From positions 809,456 to 864,493 of the forward strand of contig JAMPHB010000001.1 of NCBI GenBank assembly GCA_023663685.1: a stretch of 55,038 bases of DNA. Reading direction: 5' to 3'. The notes under the pieces are model-generated. The model was not told the origin of the DNA. It did no database searches and saw only the letters and a program-made list of their open reading frames with translations. This document shows, in pieces, positions 54,391-55,038 of this stretch (its first letter is position 1; each line of letters starts with the position of its first letter). A program made the translations under genes and the position numbers. Origin of the DNA: Blautia sp. Its GTDB lineage: Bacteria > Bacillota > Clostridia > Lachnospirales > Lachnospiraceae.

Positions 54391-54708
54391 TTACTTGTTT
54401 TTCATTTTGATATCAATGTACACACCAGCCGGCATCTCCAGACGGGACAGTGCATCCACCGTCTTCTGGGTCGGCGTCACGATATCAATCAGTCTCTTAT
54501 GAGTCCTCTGCTCAAACTGCTCACGGGAATCTTTGTACTTGTGGGTCGCACGAAGAATCGTGATAATCTCCTTCTTAGTAGGAAGAGGTACCGGGCCGCT
54601 CACCTGCGATCCGTTCTTCTTAACAGTTTCGATGATCTTCTTTGCCGATGAATCCACCAGCTCGTGATCATACGCCTTGAGAGTGATTCTCATTACTTGA
54701 CTTGCCAT
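54391..54708 (-). CDS. rpsJ: 30S ribosomal protein S10 / NusE
   Basis: 105 residues. [40 protein letters not shown] and [20 protein letters not shown] identify it. S10 also acts as NusE in transcription antitermination. First gene of the S10 operon. GGAGG lies 10 nt before the ATG at 54708; a start at the Met five codons in (MRITLK) is the common family start and possible. Confidence 0.97.
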
Positions 54709-55038
54709 AAAAAAAGTCGCCTCCTTTTCGCACTTAAAAGTTCAGTACGACAAGCGGTGACTGTACACGTTGCCGGGTGTGTCCTTGCGGTAAGGTGTCG
54801 CTCTGCGACGGATTCCTTATCGTTCTGGTAAGGTGTCGCCTGCGGTAAGGTGCCGCGTTAGCGGCGGATTCCTTATCACCCCACCGTAAGGTGGTACTCC
54901 GTACCGGATTCCTTATCGCTCTGGTAAGGAACTTCCTTATCTCCATTCCACTCCCGTCGTATCTGCCCATGGCAGACGGTTACTATCTGTACAGTGACTT
55001 GTCGTCAGTTTCCTAACTTGACATTCGCTCCACGGAAA
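54709..55038. other. Leader region of the S10 operon
   Basis: 330 bp without a gene, reaching the window edge. It holds the rpsJ ribosome site, a hairpin array (54789-54941), a TCTGCC/GGCAGA hairpin (54962-54976) and outer inverted repeats (54747-54767 and 54988-55005). No clear sigma-A promoter is seen; it may lie beyond the window. Confidence 0.7.
54747..55005 (-). repeat. Palindrome array closed by long-range inverted repeat
   Basis: Units on the plus strand: GGTAAGG...CCTTATC frames at 54789-54821, 54844-54877, 54885-54917 and 54923-54941, with inner stems GTCGC/GCGAC, GCCGC/GCGGC, GGTAC/GTACC, and none in the last. A broken unit lies at 54827-54843. The outer arms, ACGACAAG...TGACTGTACA (54747-54767) and TGTACAGTGACTTGTCGT (54988-55005), are imperfect inverted copies with a 3-nt gap. 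It looks either like a multibranched leader RNA or a small mobile element. Confidence 0.75.

Follow-up and report, generated by a model that had tools for sequence, protein, structure and literature searches.

The S10 ribosomal protein leader of a Blautia species: a known family with a conserved 3' part beyond its Rfam model and a variable tip probably filled by dispersed palindromes

For the S10 operon of E. coli, the accessible part of PMC10931766 describes a leader that is bound by L4. In Clostridia, examples of the S10 r-leader were presented by Eckert and Weinberg 2020 and judged to be in essence the Firmicutes S10 r-leader that Yao et al. 2007 had described, as given in the accessible part of PMC7247131, and the Rfam family RF03136 (S10-Clostridia r-leader) appears to have originated from that study. 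A literature search returned no papers on RF03136 by name or on palindromic repeats in Lachnospiraceae.

The window analysed here is the whole stretch of 55,038 nucleotides from Blautia sp., and the region of interest is located at its end, in front of rpsJ. The initial annotation had proposed that this region could be a new leader for a ribosomal protein operon, or else a MITE-like element. The following features place it in the known family.

54391..54708, minus strand: rpsJ, which encodes ribosomal protein S10 and heads the operon, an ORF of 105 aa
54706..55030, minus strand: S10 leader, spanning the 3' part of RF03136 through to the start codon of rpsJ (model R1, 150.2 bits, E 2.7e-39)
54999..55038, minus strand: Rfam RF03136 S10-Clostridia r-leader, 3' 40 positions (42.7 bits, gathering score 35.1)

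RF03136 was the sole Rfam match above the cut-off in the whole window when 4227 families were scanned; it adjoins the outer arm at the window edge and had escaped the initial annotation. The match is truncated by the window end and a scaffold gap, and was scored as a cut-off match at 42.7 bits, which is above the curated 35.1 bits, with rpsJ and its ribosomal protein operon directly downstream. Beyond the window end at 55038, a run of N (about 100; L004 2495-2594) replaces the 5' half of the S10 leader; because the contig runs into N, the 5' half of RF03136 is absent from the assembly, and in the contig with the N run the family scored 28.9 bits, below the cut-off. The sister genome G075 (L220) carries the complete RF03136 (85.2 bits, 81/81 positions), followed by the same array context as in the window, and its rpsJ is identical to the window rpsJ at 311/318 positions. 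The region is therefore a known S10 leader family and the suggestion of a new one has to be given up. The leader is presumably co-transcribed with rpsJ. With the L4-bound leader of E. coli it shares the operon and the same feedback logic by an operon protein, as far as the accessible part of PMC10931766 describes it; for homology between the two, RF03136 alone was above the cut-off among the 4227 families, a library that may not include an E. coli model.

The window leader resembles RF03136 in its position before rpsJ and in the sequence and structure of the 5' domain. However, the Rfam model stops at position 81, and the 3' arm, the junction, the variable tip, a ACACCCGG motif and the Shine-Dalgarno (SD) region of the window leader all lie 3' of that position. 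rpsJ as a DNA query gave a match in 42/60 relatives, and 30 rpsJ loci were kept for leader comparison. From the RF03136 start to the ATG, 28/30 leaders measured 226-370 nt; L051 measured 180 and the window's own leader was cut. By these sequence lengths the 81-position Rfam model accounts for roughly the first third of the leader, whose full length is about three to four times that of the model. In the accessible literature on S10 and rpsJ leaders and on palindromes in riboswitches, including passages of PMC7247131, PMC2965389, PMC10931766 and PMC4342826, neither the 3' part nor the array was found to be described. The parts of the extended leader in the window are as follows.

54988..55005, minus strand: closing long-range helix, 5' arm (ACGACAAG, TC, ACTGTACA), from sequence, inverted repeat, pair counts and duplex tests
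54747..54767, minus strand: closing helix, 3' arm (TGTACAGT, CACCG internal loop, CTTGTCGT), on the same basis as the 5' arm
54962..54976, minus strand: side hairpin TCTGCC/GGCAGA inside the closing helix, 5/5 model pairs with two-sided changes (alignment A2)
54949..54956, minus strand: stem bearing the variable tip, 5' side (CGGGAGTG), helix 5 of A2 with two-sided changes in 3/6 pairs, placed by alignment to the window
54774..54781, minus strand: stem bearing the variable tip, 3' side (CACACCCG), overlapping the ACACCCGG motif (54773-54780)
54728..54750, minus strand: hairpin TCGTACT/AGTGCGA, immediately 5' of the Shine-Dalgarno and with bases in common with the closing helix
54709..54728, minus strand: Shine-Dalgarno region AAAAGGAG-GCGA-CTTTTTTT, abutting the ATG, a potential SD hairpin, near invariant in the leaders compared

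The array, the hairpin and the imperfect outer arms that enclose them had been described correctly in the initial annotation and were found in the sequence where it placed them; the inner part of the arms is an 11 nt inverted repeat with 91% complementarity. In relatives, the closing helix follows a common plan, ACGACAAG-UC-ACUGUACA with UGUACAGU-CACCG-CUUGUCGU (L051 in part). After the 5' arm come the side hairpin (UCUAC/GUAGA type in relatives, not clear in L052), the tip stem (CGUGUG/CACACG type), the hairpin, the Shine-Dalgarno, seven U and AUG. The T run between the Shine-Dalgarno and the rpsJ ATG, seven and once eight long, is nearly invariant, with an internal A in a few leaders, and makes an unusual spacer. 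A motif of the ACACCCGG type, located 3' of the variable tip and beyond the Rfam model, could be anchored in 16/20 Clostridia RF03136 loci (L223-L242) and is a candidate protein-binding element. L051 (387-566; from another family of the order, 68.5 bits) is without much of the 5' arm and the RF03136 3' part and keeps the 3' end, which may be a natural deletion or an assembly error. A TATAAT-like box was also seen by eye just upstream of the leader in relatives; the promoter scan listed another site about 100 nt further upstream, not that box.

To describe the leader apart from the array, the covariance model R1 was built from 25 relatives, all of them array-free. L025, L026, L030 and L031 were deliberately kept out of it, so that the window is an independent test, and L051 was kept out of alignment A1, R1 and the pairing-probability set. 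R1 found the window leader with 150.2 bits (E 2.7e-39), the next-best match reaching 8.5 bits. It also matched 88/88 sources supplied, where 80 of the 88 had been preselected by the leader motif in named genomes, four matches were end-cut, and the window and L025 are one place. The scan with the leader motif gave at least 118 stretches, 80 of which are among the matches listed, mostly from Lachnospiraceae or uncultured Clostridia and Eubacteriales. A crude test for rpsJ was passed by 72 of these 80 motif-picked loci among the matches listed; as for the other eight, L084, L098, L101 and L106 visibly enter rpsJ, L093 and L129 stop before the gene, L140 consists of ATGGCAAGTCA up to the end of the locus, and L104 is undecided.

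In a class-wide sample, R1 matched 30/291 genomes, namely the window's own, 9 of the same family, 2 of the same order and 18 others. All 18 matches fetched from the 20 outside the family lie before rpsJ (18/18), and each matching genome gave one locus, save that the window's own leader was returned in two pieces. These results uphold the claim that this is an rpsJ leader whose closing long-range helix is conserved. RF03136 was matched in 168/291 genomes of the same sample, 132 above the cut-off; as R1 was found in only 30/291, the 3' part as modelled is mainly a Lachnospirales form. Among 20 RF03136 loci of the class, rpsJ was located by script in 14/20, and the other six are rpsJ-like by eye.

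Over 84 distinct rows, 95.9% of cells were paired compared with 92.9% in shuffles, and 111 cells were changed on both sides compared with 25 +/- 9, although alignments derived from R1 are biased towards structure by construction. Sliding the partner strand abolished the covariation signal. The side hairpin and the tip stem showed the strongest two-sided changes. The two helices of the closing-helix 3' arm were paired in 100% and 95% of cells (84 distinct rows), but within the order 3/7 and 4/8 of their pairs are invariant, and the covariation of the closing helix is thin there because the helix varies little. The 5-pair core (GTACT/AGTGC, helix 6) of the hairpin upstream of the Shine-Dalgarno was likewise paired in 100% of cells, yet 4/5 pairs are invariant.

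The long-range arms were also examined as duplexes in four sets of loci, with median z of -3.9, -4.3, -3.8 and -2.5; these values cover the loci that could be anchored (27/32, 63/80, 22/28 and 16/20, the unanchored being unscored), letters were simply shuffled for the controls, and the sequence or model of this leader, or rpsJ, had served to find the first three sets. In the third set, the 22 class loci found with R1 (median z -3.8), no more than 5/100 shuffles were as good in 22/22 loci, and the arm sequences had changed. In the fourth, 16 class leaders found with RF03136 (median z -2.5), 9/16 passed at the same threshold (at most 5/100 shuffles) and 7/16 exceeded it. The RF03136-found set is the fairer test of the arms and is only partly positive. 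The expectation that the same structure would recur before rpsJ with compensatory changes was thus borne out in relatives and only in part (9/16) in the most distant set. Judged from these comparisons of sequences, the closing helix is real and specific to the rpsJ leader.

We consider it likely that the locus is best explained as a known S10 leader family whose 3' part is conserved past the end of the Rfam model, whose tip is filled by dispersed palindromes, and which is subject to feedback by a protein of the S10 operon. An S10-operon protein in excess would bind the leader core and repress the operon; the best guess for the ligand, by analogy with E. coli, would be L4. The same bases would be contested by the UGUC/GACA pairing of RF03136 and by the closing helix ACGACAAG/CUUGUCGU, which could compete in turn with the hairpin UCGUACU/AGUGCGA next to the SD helix. 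As bases are shared among the three pairings, protein binding would shift the balance and alter the access of the ribosome. The palindromes would be passengers that the tip tolerates rather than the binding site itself, with three full and two reduced copies making up the tip filling in this species. The predicted pairing probabilities were of comparable magnitude, with medians of 0.32 for UGUC/GACA (30 leaders) and 0.25 for the closing helix (23/30 leaders), and the Shine-Dalgarno was mostly paired in prediction (mean unpaired 0.32). The bistability is a purely thermodynamic prediction. The SD hairpin taken alone was no more stable than shuffles (z -0.42). A direct anti-SD helix, CGCUU/AGGCG, appeared in one fold and is unsupported, as it showed no compensatory change: 7/30 leaders have CACUU and L027 has GGAGGAG, with the partner unmatched.

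Control by transcription attenuation, as in part of the L4 control in E. coli, rather than by hiding of the ribosome-binding site, is an unlikely alternative. About seven T directly follow GGCGAC or a similar sequence after the SD in nearly all leaders compared, and competing helices are typical of attenuators. However, the T run sits between the SD and the ATG, and scans of the window leader and the sister leader listed terminator-like sites only on the strand opposite to the mRNA, four per leader, all in the palindromes.

The tip of the window leader, which the preferred reading regards as filled by palindromes, contains the following units.

54789..54821, plus strand: palindromic unit 1, inner stem GTCGC/GCGAC
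54827..54840 (about), plus strand: partial unit, left half only, GGTAAGGTGTCGCC, from sequence and direct repeats
54844..54877, plus strand: palindromic unit 2, inner stem GCCGC/GCGGC
54885..54917, plus strand: palindromic unit 3, inner stem GGTAC/GTACC, starting CGTAAGG with C as first base
54923..54941, plus strand: short palindrome GGTAAGGAACTTCCTTATC, the frame without a separate inner stem, also in sister G075

Four units with a common frame had been counted in the initial annotation; three are full, the fourth (54923-54941) has no separate inner stem, and the partial unit was overlooked. The distance between the arms was 64-223 nt in 24 leaders, with the maximum in the window leader, and 57-201 nt by a slightly different measure in 77 named loci among the matches listed. 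A check for the unit core (AAGGAATCY) on all 28 genus leaders found GGTAAGG...GGATTCCTTATC palindromes in 6/28, namely the window, sister G075 and four further relatives; the other 22/28 have other hairpins or short tips. Among the 80 named loci in the matches listed the core occurred in one, an Agathobacter record whose leader match has the length and score of that of G005. In G075, two full units and the short palindrome follow one another as they do in the window. It is without a clean 54-nt stretch (one full and one partial unit), the remaining leader being almost identical, and the difference has no clear target duplication; on this comparison it may be an insertion in the window species or a loss in G075. 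At the 54-nt spot, L030, L032 and L058 have a different hairpin.

It is improbable that the units are functional parts of the leader, i.e. hairpins selected for RNA structure, such as several protein-binding sites. The inner stems differ in sequence and yet pair in every full unit (two were scored unpaired only through a search pattern that was one base too long), six related genomes carry units in their leaders, and the 330-nt leader as a whole folds well, at -111.7 kcal/mol against -92.2 +/- 4.8 in shuffles (z -4.1, 0/100 as low). The compensatory changes that had been read from the array are present. In the six unit-carrying leaders, the outer frame of 9/11 units has A-C or C-A on the mRNA strand and a G-T wobble on the other, so pairing is better on the opposite strand and inner-stem compensation alone is no proof of mRNA selection; the 11 units are related and the nine cases are not independent events, and one unit (G005) shows the reverse pattern. 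The single units are not all beyond chance, with fold z (mRNA strand versus opposite strand) of -2.1 versus -3.6, -0.5 versus -1.7 and -0.4 versus -0.7; two units fold better on the opposite strand and the third equally well. Against a function of the units also stand the 22/28 genus leaders without the unit core, the different unit number in the sister species and the same frame away from rpsJ. By its sequence pattern, the array is probably better read as a DNA repeat with a separate history than as a hairpin under selection in this mRNA. A further reading, in which the S10 r-leader of Clostridia is a two-domain bistable switch with a hitherto unmodelled 3' domain, offers its open tip as a landing site, and has its balance of folds tuned in this clade by the palindromes taken in, is put forward very tentatively and would be rather unlikely.

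REP/MITE-type repeats are a known class of short palindromic repeats, and the array units are like them in being short, palindromic, dispersed and sometimes tandem. A palindrome model, R2, which includes the window units, gave 65 matches in 14/62 genus genomes, of which seven are in identified rpsJ leaders (rpsJ was not located in six carriers). One member, G018, has 18 of the 65 R2 matches, far more copies than the others, and is a possible place to seek the source. In the source genome of the window, a palindrome lies in front of an open frame at C22:246918-246956 (L013) and a tandem pair lies before a gene labelled helicase-like by reading at C27:67725-67811 (L016). Past the palindromes in both places, a solitary left arm GGTAAGGAGG immediately precedes a start codon, where it may act as a Shine-Dalgarno sequence. 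A palindrome is found just behind the tmRNA gene in four related genomes (L056, L059, L064, L066), near tRNA-Ala in one relative, and at further places elsewhere. The neighbourhoods differ, and the array units have copies dispersed over unrelated loci. The recurrence after tmRNA in four genomes suggests inheritance there rather than recent jumps, and the position may reflect inheritance or a preferred site.

The units differ from REP/MITE-type repeats in that no clear target duplication was seen, some sites recur between species, and 10/14 carriers have no PF01797. This Y1 transposase domain is absent from the source genome (82% complete), which is one of these ten, and present in the carriers G022, G027, G029 and G033, and in 22/62 genus genomes overall. 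A REP with Y1 transposase is unsupported because PF01797 is absent from 10/14 carriers, the source genome included. As part of the explanation that we consider likely, the array units would be a mobile-type palindrome that colonised the tip of the leader.

The extra units could also be an assembly artefact, as the draft genome has 31 contigs and a run of N where the window stops, and arrays pose assembly problems, but this is very unlikely because the separate assembly of another species, G075, shows the same succession with two full units and the short one, and units are present in four further relatives. That the whole region is a MITE-like mobile element with the closing arms as its inverted ends and no leader function can be rejected as extremely improbable: the palindromes are dispersed and sometimes tandem, and inverted arms do surround the array, but species that have no palindrome at all still conserve the arms and their surroundings before rpsJ, and the enclosing leader is found at one locus per matching genome. 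An ORF of 78 aa over the leader (54734-54970) was treated as chance because its reading frame crosses the palindromes. Both the leader and the mobile palindrome of the initial annotation thus hold, for different parts: dispersal over unrelated loci, which had been set as evidence against a leader, applies to the array units only, and the enclosing leader is not scattered.

To summarise, the leader is of a known kind; its 3' part is conserved past the end of the Rfam model, and its variable tip has an unusual filling that is specific to the lineage. The control of the S10 operon in Clostridia has so far rested on prediction, as far as the accessible literature surveyed shows, and the conserved 3' part offers a concrete testable switch, namely which helix forms with the protein bound. 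The array also illustrates how a dispersed palindrome can lodge in an essential operon's leader and leave it intact, since the palindrome sits in the variable tip outside the conserved core.
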